This document shows positions 32,457 to 39,358 of a stretch of 64,000 nucleotides of DNA, piece by piece; the stretch's first letter is position 1, and each line of letters opens with the position of its first letter. The notes beneath the pieces are model-generated. The model searched no databases, had not been told where the DNA came from, and worked only from the letters and a program-made list of their open reading frames with translations. This DNA comes from Saccharomonospora azurea NA-128 (GTDB lineage Bacteria > Actinomycetota > Actinomycetes > Mycobacteriales > Pseudonocardiaceae), in assembly GCF_000231055.2 (NCBI RefSeq), contig NZ_CM001466.1, forward strand, positions 2,953,608 to 3,017,607, written 5' to 3'. The position numbers were made by a program, and so were the translations under genes.

Positions 32457-32529
32457 GGGGCTGTAGCTCAATTGGTAGAGCGCCGCTTTTGCAAGGCGGA
32501 GGTCAGGGGTTCGATTCCCCTCAGCTCCA
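32457..32529 (+). tRNA. alaT: tRNA-Ala (anticodon TGC)
   Basis: 73-base cloverleaf. The acceptor GGGGCTG pairs with CAGCTCC including one G-U, the anticodon loop is TTTGCAA (anticodon TGC), and the T-loop is GTTCGATTC. CCA is not encoded. It lies 34 bases after the DLW-39-type gene. Confidence 0.97.
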
Positions 32530-32666
32530 CAGGGTTTGACCAGCGCACCATCTCCGATTCCGGCATCTTCCCGGGCGTCGTCCCGTCGGTGTCTCCTTCG
32601 TTTCAGCCCTTCCGGCCCGGGTAGGTCGTACGAAAGTACTCGGCCTGCGAGGAGCCTGGAGGGGTA

Positions 32667-32921
32667 ATGGAATCGGACCGTCCGTTGCGGGACGACGACA
32701 TGCAGAGCGTCGGCGGAGGTGGCGCCGGGCCGCGGGGCCAGGACGCGGACAGCACCGACCGGGGTGGCGACACCGACGCGCGGGACACGGACACCGACGC
32801 CAAGGACGTGGACAGCGACGCGACCGACGCCGATGCCGACGCGACGGATGCCGACAGCGACGCCGAGGACGCCGACTCCGACGCCCAGGACGCGGACAGC
32901 ACGGACACGAAGGATTCGTGA
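32667..32921 (+). CDS. Asp-rich heptad-repeat protein
   Basis: 84 residues, ATG start after GGAGGGG. After a short N-terminus with a Gly run (residues 16-23), residues 35-83 are seven tandem heptads of the form D-x-D-A-x-D-A: DTDARDT, DTDAKDV, DSDATDA, DADATDA, DSDAEDA, DSDAQDA, DSTDTKD. The net charge is strongly negative. No signal peptide or hydrophobic segment is present. The stop overlaps the GTG start of the JmjC oxygenase gene, so the two are translationally coupled. No family is recognised. It could be a substrate of that oxygenase, a cation-binding protein, or a disordered spacer. Confidence 0.65.
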   Translation: MESDRPLRDDDMQSVGGGGAGPRGQDADSTDRGGDTDARDTDTDAKDVDSDATDADADATDADSDAEDADSDAQDADSTDTKDS

Positions 32922-34096
32922 GGTCGGTCGTGCAGCCCCTGCAGCGGTGCGTCGGTGACGTTGACCGGTTCGCCGACGAGGTGTGGGGTCGGCGGGCGTG
33001 GGTTCACGGGCCGACGGCGGACGGGTTCGAGGACCTCCTGAGCCTCGACGGCGTGGACGAGCTGTTGACGCAACACTCGCTGCGCAGCCCGGCGTTCCGG
33101 CTCGTCCGGGACGGCCGCACGGTGCCGCTGTCGGACTGCACGCGCACGGCGCGGATCGGTGGCACGTCGGTGAGCGGCGTCGCGGACCCGGCGCGGGTCC
33201 TGGCCGCGGTCGAGGACGGCGCCACTCTGGTGTTGCAGGGCCTGCACCGGTACTGGCCCCCGCTGGTCGGTTTCTGCCGGGAACTGGAACTGGAGCTGGG
33301 GCACCCGTGCCAGGTCAACGCCTACGTCACGCCGCCCGGAGCGCAGGGACTGCGGCCCCATACCGATTCGCACGACGTGTTCGTGCTGCAGGCGTTCGGG
33401 TCGAAGTCGTGGCAGGTGTGGCCCGCGCCGGCCGCGGATGCCGGGGACACCGGGGCGGACGGCGTCGAGGACGTCGAGCTGCGCGCGGGTATGGCTCTCT
33501 ACCTGCCGACGGGCACGCGACACGCGGCCCGCGCGCAACACGTCGTCTCGGGCCACCTCACCGTGGGGATCCATCCCACGCGGTGGCGGGACCTGATCGA
33601 GTCCGCCGTCGCGCGGGTCCTGCGGGAACCGGCGTGGGACGCGCCGCTGCCGGTGCGGTATCACCGGCAGCCGGAGTCGGTGGCCGACGAGCTCCGGCGA
33701 CAGCTCAAACAGGTGGGCGCGCAGCTCATGGCAGCCGACCCGGTCGAGCCGGTGGGCGAACGCGTCGAGCGTTTCCTCACGACCCGGCCGCCGGTGTTGC
33801 GTGGTGGGCTGCACGACCGTCTCCGGTTGTCCACGCTGGACGACACCACGCGGGTGCGTCGACGGGCGGGTTCGGTGTGTGAGCTGCGGGCCGGTGACGC
33901 CGGGGTCCTGCGCGTGCTGCTCGGTGACCGGGAGCTGCGGGTCCCGGACCGGCTCGAACCGGCGATGCGAGAGATCGCCGCCGCGCGGGGCACGGTCACG
34001 GTGGGCGACCTCGCCGGCGGGCTCGATGAGACCAGCCGCCTCGTTCTCGTGCGGCGCCTCGTGCGGGAGGGCCTGCTCGAGGTCGTGGATGCGTAG
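32918..34096 (+). CDS. JmjC/cupin-4 Fe(II)/2-oxoglutarate oxygenase
   Basis: About 392 residues, GTG start after GAAGGA. The JmjC-type double-stranded beta-helix has the facial triad H148, D150 (in LRPHTDSHDVF) and H213 (in SGHLTVGI). The region QVNAYVTPPGAQGL before the triad and FGSKSWQVWP after it are typical of the ribosomal-oxygenase (RoxA/YcfD, MINA/NO66) group. Residues ~230-390 form a helical dimerisation part and a C-terminal winged-helix-like domain. Known members hydroxylate Arg or His in ribosomal proteins. Here the neighbours, an Asp-repeat protein (upstream, overlapping) and a ferredoxin-like protein (downstream, overlapping), suggest a local substrate and electron donor, which is inference. 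Confidence 0.82.
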   Translation: MRSVVQPLQRCVGDVDRFADEVWGRRAWVHGPTADGFEDLLSLDGVDELLTQHSLRSPAFRLVRDGRTVPLSDCTRTARIGGTSVSGVADPARVLAAVEDGATLVLQGLHRYWPPLVGFCRELELELGHPCQVNAYVTPPGAQGLRPHTDSHDVFVLQAFGSKSWQVWPAPAADAGDTGADGVEDVELRAGMALYLPTGTRHAARAQHVVSGHLTVGIHPTRWRDLIESAVARVLREPAWDAPLPVRYHRQPESVADELRRQLKQVGAQLMAADPVEPVGERVERFLTTRPPVLRGGLHDRLRLSTLDDTTRVRRRAGSVCELRAGDAGVLRVLLGDRELRVPDRLEPAMREIAAARGTVTVGDLAGGLDETSRLVLVRRLVREGLLEVVDA

Positions 34097-35003
34097 ACCG
34101 CCGTTCCGATGCCGGGCGCGCAGCATGGATCTGCACGAGTCGCTGCACGGCACCGCGTCCACCGTGCGCAGGTGGTTGCTGCTCGAGGAGCCCGGTCCGT
34201 GGGGACCGGAGGCGGTGCGGGACAACCGTCTGGATCCGGCGCTCATGGCCCGGATCCGTGAGGTGGCGCGGCCGCTGCGGATGCGCGTGGTGCTGATTCG
34301 TCGAGTGCTGCGCCGCAGGGGAGCGAGCCCGGAGCGCCGACGCTGTCTGCTGGCGTGGACCGCGCCCGAGGACGGCTGGGTCGAGGAGGCGGTGCTCGAC
34401 GGTCCCGAGCAGGTGCTGGATCTGGACCTGGAGGCGTTCGCGCGCGGGCGCTCGCCGGGGTTGCGACAGGTCGACCACCCGCTCTACCTGGTCTGTACCC
34501 ACGGCTCCCACGACCCGTGCTGCGCGGAACACGGTCGGCCGGTGGCGCGGGCTCTGGCGGACGGTCTTCCGCAGCAGACGTGGGAGGTCTCGCACATCGG
34601 CGGGGACAGGTTCGCCGCCAACCTGCTGGTCCTTCCCCAGGGGCTCTACTACGGGCGCGTGCCCGCGGATGCCGCCGTGTCCCTGGCTCGCACGCACGAG
34701 CGCGGGGAGGTCGAGGTGCCGTACTTCCGAGGGCGCACGACCTACGGTTTCGGGGTGCAGGCCGCGGAGTGTCTGCTGCGCGGGCAGACGGGCATCCGCG
34801 GGATCGACGACCTGCCGCTGCGGTCGTCGCGCAGCGAGGGCGACGAGACCGTTGCGGTGTTCGCGGCGCCTCAGGGCGGTTCCTACCACGTGCGGGTCCG
34901 CACCACGGCCGCCTCCGACGACCGGGCGCTCACGTGTCACGCGCAACGCGAATCCGCTCCGCCGCAGCACGAACTCGTGGACTGGCACCTCGCCTCGGAC
35001 TGA
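34089..35003 (+). CDS. Sucrase/ferredoxin-like protein (thioredoxin-fold)
   Basis: About 304 residues from the ATG at 34089, which overlaps the JmjC gene by eight bases; an ATG at 34125 is an alternative. The family core is LVCTHGSHDPCCAEHGRPVA, with C136 and the C144-C145 pair, then WEVSHIGGDRFAANLLVLP, GLYYGRVPADAA and YFRGRTTYG. This Suc_Fer-like family has a thioredoxin-like ferredoxin fold, and some members bind a 2Fe-2S cluster with His/Cys ligands. The name comes from an early sequence fusion; sucrase activity is not implied. The overlap with the oxygenase suggests a redox-partner role. Confidence 0.8.
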   Translation: MRRPPFRCRARSMDLHESLHGTASTVRRWLLLEEPGPWGPEAVRDNRLDPALMARIREVARPLRMRVVLIRRVLRRRGASPERRRCLLAWTAPEDGWVEEAVLDGPEQVLDLDLEAFARGRSPGLRQVDHPLYLVCTHGSHDPCCAEHGRPVARALADGLPQQTWEVSHIGGDRFAANLLVLPQGLYYGRVPADAAVSLARTHERGEVEVPYFRGRTTYGFGVQAAECLLRGQTGIRGIDDLPLRSSRSEGDETVAVFAAPQGGSYHVRVRTTAASDDRALTCHAQRESAPPQHELVDWHLASD

Positions 35004-35022: not shown

Positions 35023-35991
35023 TCAGCGCTGGACCGGGTCCCCTCCGCTGGCGAGGAACGCGTCGAGTTCGTCGGGCGTGGGCGCGGCCTCCCAGTCACC
35101 GGGCATCGTGCACAGCACCGCCCCGCAGGCGTTCGCGCGGCGGAGTTTCTCCTCGACGCTCCAGCCCTGGACGTCGCCGCTGAGGTAACCCGCCACGAAC
35201 GCGTCTCCGGCGCCGACGGTGTCGACCACCTCGATGCGATGTCCAGGCGCGTGGACGACGGAGTCGCCGGCGTGGGTCGACGCACCGTCGGCTCCCCGCT
35301 TCACCACGATTTCGCGCGTGCCGGCGGGATCGAGCGCCGCGACCAGCGCGTCGACCTCGGGTTCGTCCGCGGCACCGCCGGGGGCCACGTGCGCGAGTTC
35401 CTCGGGGGAGCCGAACACGAGGTCCGCCTCCGCGGCGAGTTCGCCGAGCACCTCCGAGGCGACGTGCGCGGGAGCGAGCGTAGAGCGGTAGTTCACGTCG
35501 AAGCTCACGCGCACCCCGGCCGCCCGCGCCCGCCGCACCACGCACAGACACGCCTCGCGCGCGGACTCCGACAGCAGCGGGGTGATGCCCGTGAGATGCA
35601 CGAGCGCGACGCTCTCGACGAGGCCCGGGGGCACGTCGTCCGCCGTCAGTCGGGACCCGGCGGACCCGGCGCGGTAGTAGTACACCCGCGCGGTGCCCGG
35701 TCCCGTGAGTTCCTTGAGCATGAGTCCCGTCGCCGCGCCGGGATCGACGGGCGCCAGCACGTCGACGCCCTCACCGCGGATCTCGCGCACGACGCGCCGG
35801 CCCAGCGAGTCGTCGCCGACCCGGCCGATCCAGGTGACCGGCACACCGAGGCGGCTCAGGCCGACGGCGACGTTGGTCTCCGCGCCGCCGATGCCCACGG
35901 ACATCTCGGAGACGTGGGCGAGCGACCCGATGCGTCCTCCGGTGAGCAGGCCCATCGTCTCGCCGAGGGTGAGGACCCGGGGAGCCGTCAT
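35023..35991 (-). CDS. kdgK: 2-keto-3-deoxygluconate kinase (PfkB family)
   Basis: About 322 residues from the ATG at 35991. PfkB signatures: GETMGLLT near the start, SVGIGGAETNVAVGLSRLG (substrate lid and sugar binding) and the C-terminal DTVGAGDAFVAGYLSG with the catalytic Asp. The conserved YYYRAGSAGSRL region supports KDG as the substrate. It phosphorylates KDG to KDPG, the substrate of the overlapping aldolase gene (ATGA overlap at 35988-35991). Last gene of the catabolic cluster. Confidence 0.87.
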   Translation of the reverse strand: MTAPRVLTLGETMGLLTGGRIGSLAHVSEMSVGIGGAETNVAVGLSRLGVPVTWIGRVGDDSLGRRVVREIRGEGVDVLAPVDPGAATGLMLKELTGPGTARVYYYRAGSAGSRLTADDVPPGLVESVALVHLTGITPLLSESAREACLCVVRRARAAGVRVSFDVNYRSTLAPAHVASEVLGELAAEADLVFGSPEELAHVAPGGAADEPEVDALVAALDPAGTREIVVKRGADGASTHAGDSVVHAPGHRIEVVDTVGAGDAFVAGYLSGDVQGWSVEEKLRRANACGAVLCTMPGDWEAAPTPDELDAFLASGGDPVQR

Positions 35992-36644
35992 CGTGCTCCG
36001 CTCTCCGCGCACACCTCGACGAATCGTCGTGCTCGCTGCGCGAGACCATCGAGGTCAGCGAGGCCACCACGTGAGAGCGCGTCCCCGAGCAGCGGGCCGC
36101 CGACGCTCACCGCCGCCGCCCCGGCGGACAGCCAGGAGCGCGCCGCGTCGAGGTCCACGCCTCCGGACGGGATGACGGCGAGGTCGGGGAACGGGCCGCG
36201 GAGATCGTCGAGGTAGCCCGTGTCCACCTGTCGAGCCGGGAACAGCTTCACCGCGCACACCCCGCGGTTCCACGTGGAGTGCAGCTCGGTCGGCGTGAGC
36301 CCGCCGGGGACGACGGCGATGCCGCGGTCGAGGGCGCGATCGACGACCGTGAGGTCGGCGGCCGGCGTGACGAGGTAGTGGGCTCCTCCGTCGACGGCGG
36401 TGTCGACCTGTTCCGGCCGCGTCACGGTGCCGATCCCGATGTCGGCGCTCGCCCCGTACCGTTCGACGAGCCCGGGCAGGGCGGCGAACGTGCCGGGAGT
36501 GGTGAGGGTGAGTTCGACACTCCGTACACCCGCCTCGACCAGGGTGTCGACGACCGGCACGTAGTCCTCCGCGCGCTCACCCCGGAGGACCACGACGAGG
36601 CGTGAGGCGGCGGTCCGCCCCGGCAGGGCCTGGCGCTGGCTCAT
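35988..36644 (-). CDS. eda: KDPG aldolase (bifunctional KHG/KDPG type)
   Basis: 218 residues, ATG start. Class I aldolase that splits KDPG into pyruvate and glyceraldehyde 3-phosphate. The Schiff-base lysine is K133 in VCAVKLFPA, and the catalytic Glu is E44 in SVELTLTTPG. IGIGTVTRPEQVDTAVDGGA and VIPSGGVDLDAARSWLSAGA (phosphate binding) are standard. Between it and the mannonate dehydratase there are only 16 bases. A parS-like sequence lies inside the coding region (36267-36280). Confidence 0.9.
   Translation of the reverse strand: MSQRQALPGRTAASRLVVVLRGERAEDYVPVVDTLVEAGVRSVELTLTTPGTFAALPGLVERYGASADIGIGTVTRPEQVDTAVDGGAHYLVTPAADLTVVDRALDRGIAVVPGGLTPTELHSTWNRGVCAVKLFPARQVDTGYLDDLRGPFPDLAVIPSGGVDLDAARSWLSAGAAAVSVGGPLLGDALSRGGLADLDGLAQRARRFVEVCAESGAR
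36267..36280. other. Degenerate parS-like sequence in eda
   Basis: GTTCCACGTGGAGT differs from the palindrome GTTCCACGTGGAAC at two terminal bases. It lies inside coding sequence, so it could be chance; position on the same arm as parS-like site 4 makes it worth noting. Confidence 0.35.
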
Positions 36645-36660
36645 TCTGTGCGTCCTCCCC

Positions 36661-37905
36661 TCACCAGTCGTGCACGGTGCCGTCGAGCAGGCGGTTCACC
36701 GGGAGGTAGGCGGCGGTGTAGGGGTGGTGCGCGGCGAGGTCCTCGTCGAGTTCCGCACCGAGACCCGGGGTGTCGCCGGGGTGGAGGAACCCGCGGTCGA
36801 ACGTGTACGAGGTGCGGAACACCTCGAGGGTGAGGTCGCTGTGCGGCATGTACTCCTGGATGCCGAAGTTGTGGATCGCCAGGTCCAGGTGCAACGCCGC
36901 CGCCATGCCGATCGGCGAGACGTCGGTGGGGCCGTGGATGCCCGAACGGATGCCGTAGATGCCGGCGAAGTCGAGCAGCTTCTTCATCCCCGTGACACCG
37001 CCGGTGTGCGTGGGCGCCGAACGCACGTAGTCGATGAGCCGTTCGGTGACGAGCGTCTGGTAGTCGTACACCGAGTTGAAGACCTCGCCCGTGGCCAGCG
37101 GCGTGGTGCTGTGCTGCCGGATGAGCCGGAACGCCTCCTGGTCCTCGCCGGGGGTGGCGTCCTCCAACCAGAAGAGGTCGTACGGTTCGAGGGACTTCGC
37201 CAGGCGGGCCGCCTCGATCGGGGACAGGCGGTGGTGGCTGTCGTGCAGCAACCGCAGCTCGGGCCCGAACTCCTCCCGCACCTTCTCGAAGATCGACGGA
37301 ATGTGCCGCAGGTACGCGGGCGTGTCCCAGTCCTCCTCCACGGGGCGGGTGGCGGCACTGCCGTCGGCGGCCCGGTGCGCGGGTTCGTAGTCGTACTTCT
37401 CCCCGGGCTTCGCCGTCGCCGACACGCCGTAGACGGCGTCGAGCCCGGGGACACCCGTCTGGATCCGGACCGCGGTGTAGCCCTGCTCCACGTACGCGCG
37501 GATCGCCTGGGACAGCGCGGCGTAGTCGTTGCCGGAGGCGTGCGCGTAGACGCGGAGCTTCTCGCGGCTCGCCCCGCCGAGCAGCTGGTACAGCGGGACG
37601 CCCGCCTTCTTCGCCTTGATGTCCCACAGCGCCATGTCGACGGCGGAGATCGCGGCCATCGTCACGGGACCGCGCCGCCAGTAGGCGCCCCGGTACAGGT
37701 ACTGCCACGTGTCCTCGATGCGGTCCTCGTCCCGGCCGACGAGGGTGGTCGCGAGGTGGTCCCGCAGGTACGACGCGACGGCGAGTTCGCGCCCGTTGAG
37801 GGTCGCGTCGCCCCACCCGACGACACCGTCGGAGGTGACGATCTTGAGGGTGACGAAGTTGCGTCCGGGACTCGTGACGATGACGTCGACGGTCGAGATG
37901 CTCAC
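36661..37905 (-). CDS. manD: D-mannonate dehydratase, enolase-superfamily ManD type
   Basis: About 414 residues. The start is the GTG at 37905 after GGAAGGAAG. It is an enolase-fold enzyme that dehydrates D-mannonate to 2-keto-3-deoxygluconate. Typical motifs: [20 protein letters not shown] (capping domain), [11 protein letters not shown] and [12 protein letters not shown] (metal ligands), [46 protein letters not shown] and [10 protein letters not shown]. High-activity mannonate dehydratases of this family carry these; low-activity relatives also act on D-gluconate. Its neighbours UxuB, KdgK and Eda support the mannonate role. Confidence 0.9.
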
Positions 37906-37957
37906 GGTGGTCGCTTCCTTCCGAGGCGGGCGGGGGGAACGGCGGTGTCGGCGCGGG

Positions 37958-39358
37958 TCAGACCGCGTTGCGCGGGTCCCTGAGGTCACGCCCGGCGACC
38001 TCAGGCATGAGGAACGTCGCGATGAGCGGGCAGACCGTGAAGATGCCGAGCATGATCGCGATCGGGATCCACGAGCCGGTGGTCGCGGCGACCCAGGCGG
38101 CCACCACGACGGGACCGAGCCCCGTGGCGATCATCGCGGCGATCTCGCGGACGACGCCGGTGGCGGTGTAGCGGTGGCGGGACCCGAAGAGCTCGGGCAG
38201 CGTGAGGTTCTCCAGCGAGGCGAGCGCCATCACCGACACGTTGTGCATGACGATGTAGCCGACGAACACCTGCGGCACGTCCGCTCCGGCGATCGCCATC
38301 ATCGTCGGCACGATGAGGACGAGCGAGATCACGCTCATGATCCGGTACATGCGGCGGCGGCCGAACCGGTCGCCGAGCGCACCGACGATCGGCACCGTGA
38401 GGAACGCGCACAGCGAGGAGACGATCACGACGTTCGTGCCCACCGAGGGCGACATCGCGAGCGTGACGGTGATGAACGAGACCATGTAGGTCTGCAGGAT
38501 TCCCGAGTTGCCTGCCTGGCCGAAGCGCAGCAGGAACGCCGGAACGAACGCGCGCCACTTGTTCTGTTCGAGCGCCTCCAGCATCCGGGTGTCGTTCTCT
38601 CGCTCCGCCTTCGCCCGGATCTCCTCCGTCGTGAGCGCCACGCCGTCGTCGACGTGGGCGCTCTCCTCGAACACGGGGCTCTCCTTGAGCCGGAAGCGCA
38701 CCCATACGGCGAACAGCAGGATCACGGCGCTGCCGAGGAACGGAATCCGCCAGCCCCAGGAGAGGAGCTGTTCCTCGGACAGGGTGGCGACGAGGACGCC
38801 CCAGATCGCCGAGGCTCCGAGCGTGCCGCAGTTCGTGCCGAGCGCGACGAGCGAGGCGATGATGCCGCGCCGTTTCGTCGGGGCGTACTCGGCGAGCATG
38901 ACACCGGCGCCGGAGATCTCCGCCCCGGCTCCGAAGCCCTGCACGAGGCGAAGTGCCACCAGGAGGATCGGGGCGAGGATGCCGATGTCGTGGGCGGTCG
39001 GCAGGGCACCGATCAGTGTCGTGGCGGCGCCCATGAGGGCGATCGTGATGAAGAGGACCTTCGTGCGGCCCACCCGGTCGCCGAGGCGTCCGAAGTACCA
39101 CGCACCGGCGGGGCGCGCGATGTAGCCGACCGCGTACGTCGCCATCGCGGAGACGACCGCGAGCGCCGGGCTCTCGCCGACGAAGAAGAGCTGGCCGAAG
39201 ACGAGTCCGGCCGCGAGGGAGTAGAGCTGGAAGTCCATGAACTCCAGCGCGGTGCCGAGCCAGCCGGACATCGCGGCCCGGGTGAGGTCACCGGTGCTGC
39301 GCTGGGCGGGGCCGTCCTTCGGGGCACCCGTCTCGGACAGCGGTGCAGAAGTGGACAT
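37958..39358 (-). CDS. MFS transporter, metabolite:H+ symporter type
   Basis: About 466 residues from the ATG at 39358 after GAAGGAAC, with about 12 hydrophobic segments. The loop between helices 2 and 3 has [14 protein letters not shown], and the repeated version [14 protein letters not shown] lies in the second half, both classic [24 protein letters not shown] and [10 protein letters not shown] are typical of the MHS branch (ShiA, KgtP, ProP). Given the cluster it probably imports the aldonate or hexuronate that the enzymes degrade. Confidence 0.83.

Follow-up and report, generated by a model that had tools for sequence, protein, structure and literature searches.

Histidine or arginine residues of ribosomal proteins are modified by the oxygenases MINA53, NO66 and the L16 arginine hydroxylase, whose genes are not known to stand beside genes for a ferredoxin and a small acidic peptide. 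Here we describe a cassette of three overlapping genes, encoding a small aspartate-repeat protein, a JmjC oxygenase and a Suc_Fer-like protein, at positions 32667–35003 of a 64,000-nucleotide stretch of the Saccharomonospora azurea NA-128 genome (contig NZ_CM001466.1; a single-contig genome of 4.76 Mb). The whole stretch is referred to as the window. The trio recurs across actinobacteria and beyond, and we consider that it probably forms a compact peptide modification set, resembling those of ribosomally synthesized and post-translationally modified peptides (RiPPs), with a precursor, an Asp-oxidising JmjC oxygenase, an electron-delivering Suc_Fer-like protein and an intracellular product.

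JmjC and cupin enzymes are already known in RiPP pathways. According to the available parts of the biphenomycin descriptions (PMC12257519, PMC12707348), the JmjC-type BipG and the related, cupin-like PbsQ hydroxylate the side chain of ornithine in a ribosomal precursor peptide. The target there is, however, one ornithine, made from the arginine of a Phe-Arg-Phe motif. The clusters also encode a multinuclear non-haem iron-dependent oxidative enzyme (MNIO), a B12-dependent radical S-adenosylmethionine (rSAM) enzyme, an enzyme converting arginine to ornithine and a TldD-type protease, and the same parts of the descriptions mention neither aspartate repeats nor a Suc_Fer partner. The window precursor contains no phenylalanine and does not have the biphenomycin core motif. 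The TvgABC polycyclopropylglycine pathway, in the part of its description available, likewise combines a repeat precursor with an α-ketoglutarate-dependent enzyme, but its repeats are Thr-Val-Gly-Gly, the cyclopropyl groups are introduced by an rSAM enzyme and transporters are present (PMC11002830).

A 2025 survey of RiPP recognition elements (RREs) reported fusions of JmjC (PF08007) proteins with RRE-like folds and noted that bacterial homologues occur in RiPP-like contexts (PMC12710340). In the accessible portion the point is made briefly, for proteins of fish and algae and their ∼30% identical bacterial homologues, and a search of the main text for the words cupin, SucFer and hydroxylase found nothing. 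Word searches of the available text of PMC7470986, PMC7794033 and PMC11002830 found no mention of JmjC or cupin. We found no description of an Asp-repeat/JmjC/ferredoxin class in the open-access literature searched, where most subscription papers are missing, and to that extent the class is apparently undescribed.

The features of the locus are collected in the table below. A preliminary description of this DNA had noted three overlapping genes, with overlaps of 4 and 8 bases, an oxygenase with an intact H148-D150-H213 triad and a Suc_Fer-like protein with conserved cysteines; the open reading frame (ORF) coordinates agree with the first point, and the second and third hold in the comparisons given below. 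A GGAGG Shine-Dalgarno sequence precedes the ATG of the small protein, and the GC content at third codon positions (GC3) is 0.90, 0.90 and 0.88 for the three genes in order. The start of the third gene at ATG 34089, which produces the 8-base overlap, is favoured over an alternative ATG at 34125 because the codon for Cys8, a residue shared by all 33 sequences aligned, precedes the latter.

Features of the cassette and its upstream landmark (positions in the window)
Feature	Position	Strand	Remarks
tRNA-Ala (TGC)	32457..32530	+	ARAGORN; upstream landmark
Asp-repeat small protein, 84 aa	32667..32921	+	proposed precursor/substrate; leader RPLRDDDMQSV, followed by DxDAxD repeats
Leader motif L-x-D-D-D-[IM]-x-[TS] plus next residue	32685..32711	+	residues 7–15; conserved; proposed recognition element
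Six D-x-D-A-x-D units	32769..32891	+	residues 35–75; 7-residue register
JmjC (PF08007) 2-oxoglutarate oxygenase, 392 aa	32918..34096	+	H148/D150/H213, K163
Suc_Fer-like thioredoxin-fold ferredoxin subfamily, 304 aa	34089..35003	+	C136-x8-C145 ... H169-x3-D173 (HxGGD)

The association between the small protein and the oxygenase was examined in 187 JmjC loci: 88 from the family of the window genus (out of 97 matches), 80 from named genomes and 19 reached through a DNA pattern for the precursor. One genome is present twice (L044 and L139, identical). Selection was by JmjC similarity or by the precursor pattern, so that proportions among the loci are not population frequencies. Precursors were recognised by a fixed rule, which replaced an earlier and stricter regular expression (119 of 187 loci) and asked for an acidic four-letter motif near the start codon, a core rich in D, G, A, S, T or N and poor in R, K and L, and an end near the JmjC start. 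By this rule a small Asp-rich ORF lies directly upstream of the JmjC gene in 161 of the 187 loci, compared with none of 2994 control anchors placed on both strands of the same loci. Among the 26 misses, five have a precursor visible by eye (L039, L059, L068, L080 and L207), six are close to the end of a contig (in one, L141, an Asp-rich ORF can be seen), one is partly masked with an Asp-rich tail (L150), one is apparently without a precursor (L066) and 13 are more distant paralogues.

Since the rule was shaped on these very sequences, the search in the reverse direction, from precursor to oxygenase, carries more weight. Within the order, a DNA pattern for DGGADGGAD was found in 127 of 397 genomes and its reversed control in 3. 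In 19 of the 20 loci fetched, one per genome from 20 of the 127, a JmjC gene lies beside the pattern. Across the phylum the pattern was found in 12 of 396 genomes (reversed control 2), with a JmjC gene beside it in just 3 of the 12; outside the order, the pattern alone is a weak marker. Co-occurrence in both directions lends strong support to the earlier proposal that the small protein is a dedicated JmjC substrate. Oxygenase homologues regularly without the acidic gene, which would count against it, were not found inside the clade, but the 13 distant paralogues have neither this gene nor Suc_Fer.

Within the window genus, a near full-length JmjC orthologue is present in 4 of 12 genomes, that of the window included. 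The same four hold PF06999 and the repeat ORF, and the other eight have none of the three. A lone stray match to the pattern DADxDAxDA was found elsewhere in one other genome (G010). Three of the eight cassette-less genomes are only 82–83% complete, and three of the eight hold more distant JmjC genes. The five loci of these distant genes (L008–L012) served as a negative control, and neither an acidic ORF upstream nor an adjoining Suc_Fer match was seen. Further afield, the search for the three-gene set in other actinobacteria that the preliminary description had called for found it to extend far beyond the window. An alignment scan of named bacterial and archaeal genomes with the oxygenase gave 575 relatives; the best 80, which were examined, include Nocardioides, Aeromicrobium, Marmoricola, Micropruina, Propioniciclava and Halosaccharopolyspora, together with Acidimicrobiia, Nitriliruptorales, Egibacteraceae, two Chloroflexi and one deltaproteobacterial metagenome-assembled genome. 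One scan of viral contigs found no relative, and viral carriage was rejected. A JmjC tree of 186 rows, obtained by a quick search that gave long-branch warnings and used only to place the window, groups it with seven other rows from its own and two nearby genera, beside Nocardioides-type rows.

The small protein of the window had been credited with seven D-x-D-A-x-D-A heptads. This is an overstatement: four are exact, and a strict 7-residue register is kept by six D-x-D-A-x-D units, which start at residues 35, 42, 49, 56, 63 and 70. The register is not a chance product of composition, because the lag-7 Asp autocorrelation in the 59-residue core is 17, compared with 8.4 in composition shuffles (none of 5000 as high), and adjacent Asp pairs number 0 where 9.4 are expected. 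The expectation that a heptad register would be conserved in the family proved wrong. The DxDAxDA heptad is one of several repeat types, seen only in the window genus and a few scattered relatives, and it was rejected as a family hallmark since most relatives have DGTDGD-type or DGGADGGA-type repeats. Core type follows lineage, with DxDAxD in the window genus, DTQDAD in the two nearest genera, DGTDGDATDTTDGDAS in Nocardioides, and DGGADGGA and GPADSGA in other genera of the window family and four other families of the order. In one genus (L068 and L080) the precursors are much lengthened by Gly/Phe-rich GGGGFGGGG stretches between the Asp repeats.

Across the 161 precursors, the core is 32–165 residues long and holds 7–46 Asp. 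Aspartate alone is present in at least three copies in all 161 cores; for other residues the corresponding counts are 156 for Gly, 154 for Ala, 125 for Ser and 103 for Thr. Adjacent Asp pairs are rarer than chance (38 observed, 745 expected), Asp–Asp spacings concentrate at 2, 3 and 4, and Cys, Trp, Phe and Tyr are all missing from 150 of the 161 cores. The part ahead of the core behaves differently. A leader near L-x-D-D-D-[IM]-x-[TS] could be anchored in 160 of the 161, with L at position 1 in 135, D at position 3 in 159, I or M at position 6 in 151 and T or S at position 8 in 151, although these counts are somewhat inflated because both the anchoring score and the precursor rule favour such letters. 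Within the window genus the repeat copy number changes while the leader is almost constant, and the leader is kept among the six nearest sequences aligned. A conserved leader followed by a variable repeat core is, judged from sequence, the anatomy of a RiPP precursor. Pfam and NCBIfam matches of the window protein all fell below cut-off, and no relative gave a match above it (nine compared with NCBIfam, five with Pfam).

The second protein matches the JmjC_2 family PF08007 (E 2.4e-19; 69.5 bits against a cut-off of 22), as did 40 of 40 sampled members at E ≤ 1. H148, D150, H213 and K163 are kept in all 187 oxygenases. The best solved relatives are MINA53, NO66 and the L16 arginine hydroxylase, with E-values of 2.2e-11 to 4.9e-05 across some 102–146 query residues; they share the iron triad and the aligned lysine, and K163 corresponds to what we take to be the 2-oxoglutarate-ligand lysine of MINA53. 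The C-terminal 40 residues (350–390) gave a weak winged-helix match (AbiEi_4), in 2 of the 40 members compared. The oxygenase may plausibly bind the leader with this end, given the JmjC proteins with RRE-like folds mentioned in the part of the RRE survey available (PMC12710340).

Several more distant JmjC genes also follow small ORFs. In a paralogue clade without Suc_Fer (L087, L089, L093 and L102), the upstream peptide is of a different kind, with a leader FSL[DG]A[DE]DVEVTRTPP and a core containing two copies of a VIADNDPSDPVL-like repeat; its similar leader and unrelated core suggest that the enzyme family has a second type of precursor. At two more divergent loci (L108 and L115), the upstream ORFs have leader-like LSDEEI or LRDADI followed by quite different sequence. 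Three further paralogues (L113, L114 and L117) lie directly behind an ORF that by eye resembles what we take to be a SagB-type dehydrogenase, presumably as in other RiPP clusters.

The third protein belongs to the Suc_Fer-like family PF06999 (E 3.6e-21; 76.5 bits against a cut-off of 34.9). In the yeast proteins Apd1 and Aim32, as far as their available descriptions go, a [2Fe-2S] cluster is held by Cys and His ligands in a CX8C...HX3H arrangement. The window protein has C136, C145 and H169 in the same arrangement but fails the full ligand motif, as residue 173 is Asp. The same change runs through the operon members: CX8C and the first His are kept, an additional His (HD) stands between the cysteines, and the last ligand position is Asp in 107, Cys in 33, Glu in 1 and His in none of the 141 readable of 147 members, so that all 141 read HD...HxGG[D/C/E] and never HxGGH. 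Eighteen matches in 31 related genomes were compared according to context. The ten beside a JmjC gene, the window protein included, have Asp (nine) or Glu (one) at the last position, whereas seven of the eight without JmjC in the fetched locus have HxGGH with Arg replacing the extra His; the eighth, L257, has HxGGD with Lys there. Among loci with a classified precursor the Cys form (HxGGC) is confined to GPAD-type cores (29 of 50 readable, for example L048, L058 and L061); it is absent from all 72 readable DxD/TD-type loci and from the 9 other loci of DGGADGG type.

Linkage between precursor and Suc_Fer was counted in the 157 loci that had room on both sides and were not chosen by pattern, with the five by-eye precursors scored as present and L150 as absent. 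Both genes were found in 136 loci and neither in 14, while six had the precursor only and one had Suc_Fer only.

Taken as a RiPP-like modification set, the cassette would work as follows. The small protein would be the precursor, its short acidic leader serving as the recognition sequence and its repeats as the modified core. The JmjC oxygenase would grip the leader, probably through its C-terminal winged-helix-like part, and would oxidise the evenly spaced Asp side chains successively. Two points make beta-hydroxylation our best guess for the chemistry: every core carries evenly spaced Asp, and hydroxylation of side chains in peptides and proteins is an established activity of JmjC enzymes. 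The Suc_Fer-like protein, a putative thioredoxin-fold ferredoxin with altered ligands, would most likely supply electrons to hold the oxygenase iron in the Fe(II) state, or return it to that state, over the many turnovers required per chain. As recurring genes for a transporter, a protease or immunity were not seen, the hydroxylated poly-Asp protein would probably remain inside the cell, where it might act as a metal-binding polymer, although this role is speculation. A more specific version, which we regard as rather improbable, has a single JmjC enzyme convert up to 46 Asp per core to beta-hydroxyaspartate, so that the product would be an intracellular chelator of iron or another metal; here the ferredoxin would not serve the enzyme but would reduce bound Fe(III) for release, and the cassette would amount to an iron buffer made on ribosomes and equipped with a reductase of its own.

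The surroundings of the cassette bear on the fate of the product. No fourth gene family was present in more than 13 of the 161 loci, and a dedicated transporter or protease was rejected on this basis, although the negative is weak because only ORFs of at least 120 aa were scanned and JmjC itself was recovered in just 110 of the 161. One neighbour family resembles an ABC ATPase (12 loci, scattered positions), and the one exception to the count, a minus-strand group over the JmjC and Suc_Fer genes in 68 loci, was taken for putative antisense frames. As no other widely recurring neighbour was seen, export and antibiotic action are not indicated.

A number of observations weigh against the proposed modification set. 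The precursor rule was set after the sequences had been seen. In the window family, JmjC matches at E ≤ 1e-30 are present in 92 of 390 genomes and absent from the other 298. On the tree, the linkage of precursor and Suc_Fer comes down to 4–5 independent contrasts (median sign-test p 0.25, not significant, with low power), and the ferredoxin may not be indispensable, since six loci have a precursor and no Suc_Fer was found. The nearest solved relatives of the oxygenase are named histidyl or L16-arginine hydroxylases, not Asp hydroxylases, and no RRE or PqqD model in Pfam or NCBIfam matched it. The near-universality of Gly and Ala in the cores leaves Asp as a presumed rather than a proven target. 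Simple iron control is spoken against by the upstream regions: IdeR-, Zur-, FurA- and Rex-like boxes were not clearly enriched in the 161, with 1, 2, 0 and 0 regions matching compared with 0 each in shuffles (up to 4 mismatches).

The abundance of Gly and Ala also favours the best surviving alternative, in which the oxygenase catalyses a different 2-oxoglutarate reaction on the repeat protein, for instance desaturation, formation of cross-links or macrocycles, or oxidation of Gly, Ala, Ser or Thr. The TvgABC system, as partly described, provides a precedent in a repeat precursor served by an rSAM and an α-ketoglutarate enzyme (PMC11002830). Against such a reaction, only Asp reaches three copies in every core, and it does so with constrained spacing. 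Cys, Trp, Phe and Tyr are often used in cross-links, and the lack of all four from most cores speaks against cross-linking in particular. We regard this alternative as possible but unlikely.

A less probable alternative, which we think doubtful, is that the acidic repeat protein needs no modification for its function, which could be that of a disordered calcium- or iron-binding protein, while the oxygenase targets another molecule such as a ribosomal protein. This would suit the identity of the solved homologues, and the Asp spacings of the cores are ones that we take to resemble metal-binding repeats. It does not readily account for a constant leader beside a changing core, for the finding of JmjC and precursor together in both search directions or for the quite different peptides with a similar leader that adjoin the related JmjC genes of the L087 clade. 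A ribosomal role is further disfavoured because JmjC and precursor are jointly missing from 8 of the 12 genus genomes. That the repeat ORF is a chance product of GC-rich DNA rather than a protein is hardly credible: high GC and low complexity do breed spurious ORFs and the Pfam and NCBIfam matches are below cut-off, but the empty control anchors led us to reject it, and the Shine-Dalgarno sequence, the GC3 of 0.90, the 4-base stop/start overlap, the kept leader and the excess of the precursor pattern over its reversed control in the order all point the same way.

Outside the cassette, a small DLW-39 family protein (NCBIfam NF038356; 32195–32422) lies directly upstream of the tRNA-Ala gene. A tRNA-Ala gene also adjoins the operon in one of three genus relatives (L041; ARAGORN found none at L039 and L040). 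On the minus strand, facing the cassette, 35023–37989 holds a PfkB sugar kinase gene and then ORFs that resemble by eye an aldolase of the KDPG type and a dehydratase of the mannonate/mandelate type; together these genes probably form an operon for sugar-acid degradation.

With these comparisons, an odd gene trio becomes a testable and broadly distributed class of peptide modification that comprises just three genes and has carriers in named genera including Nocardioides, Aeromicrobium, Micropruina and Halosaccharopolyspora. If the proposed modification set is correct, it would add Asp-directed JmjC chemistry to RiPP biosynthesis and would provide a bacterial protein rich in oxidised aspartate. 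It would also define a ferredoxin subfamily with Asp or Cys in place of His as the fourth presumed cluster ligand, which would offer natural material for the study of [2Fe-2S] ligand swaps.

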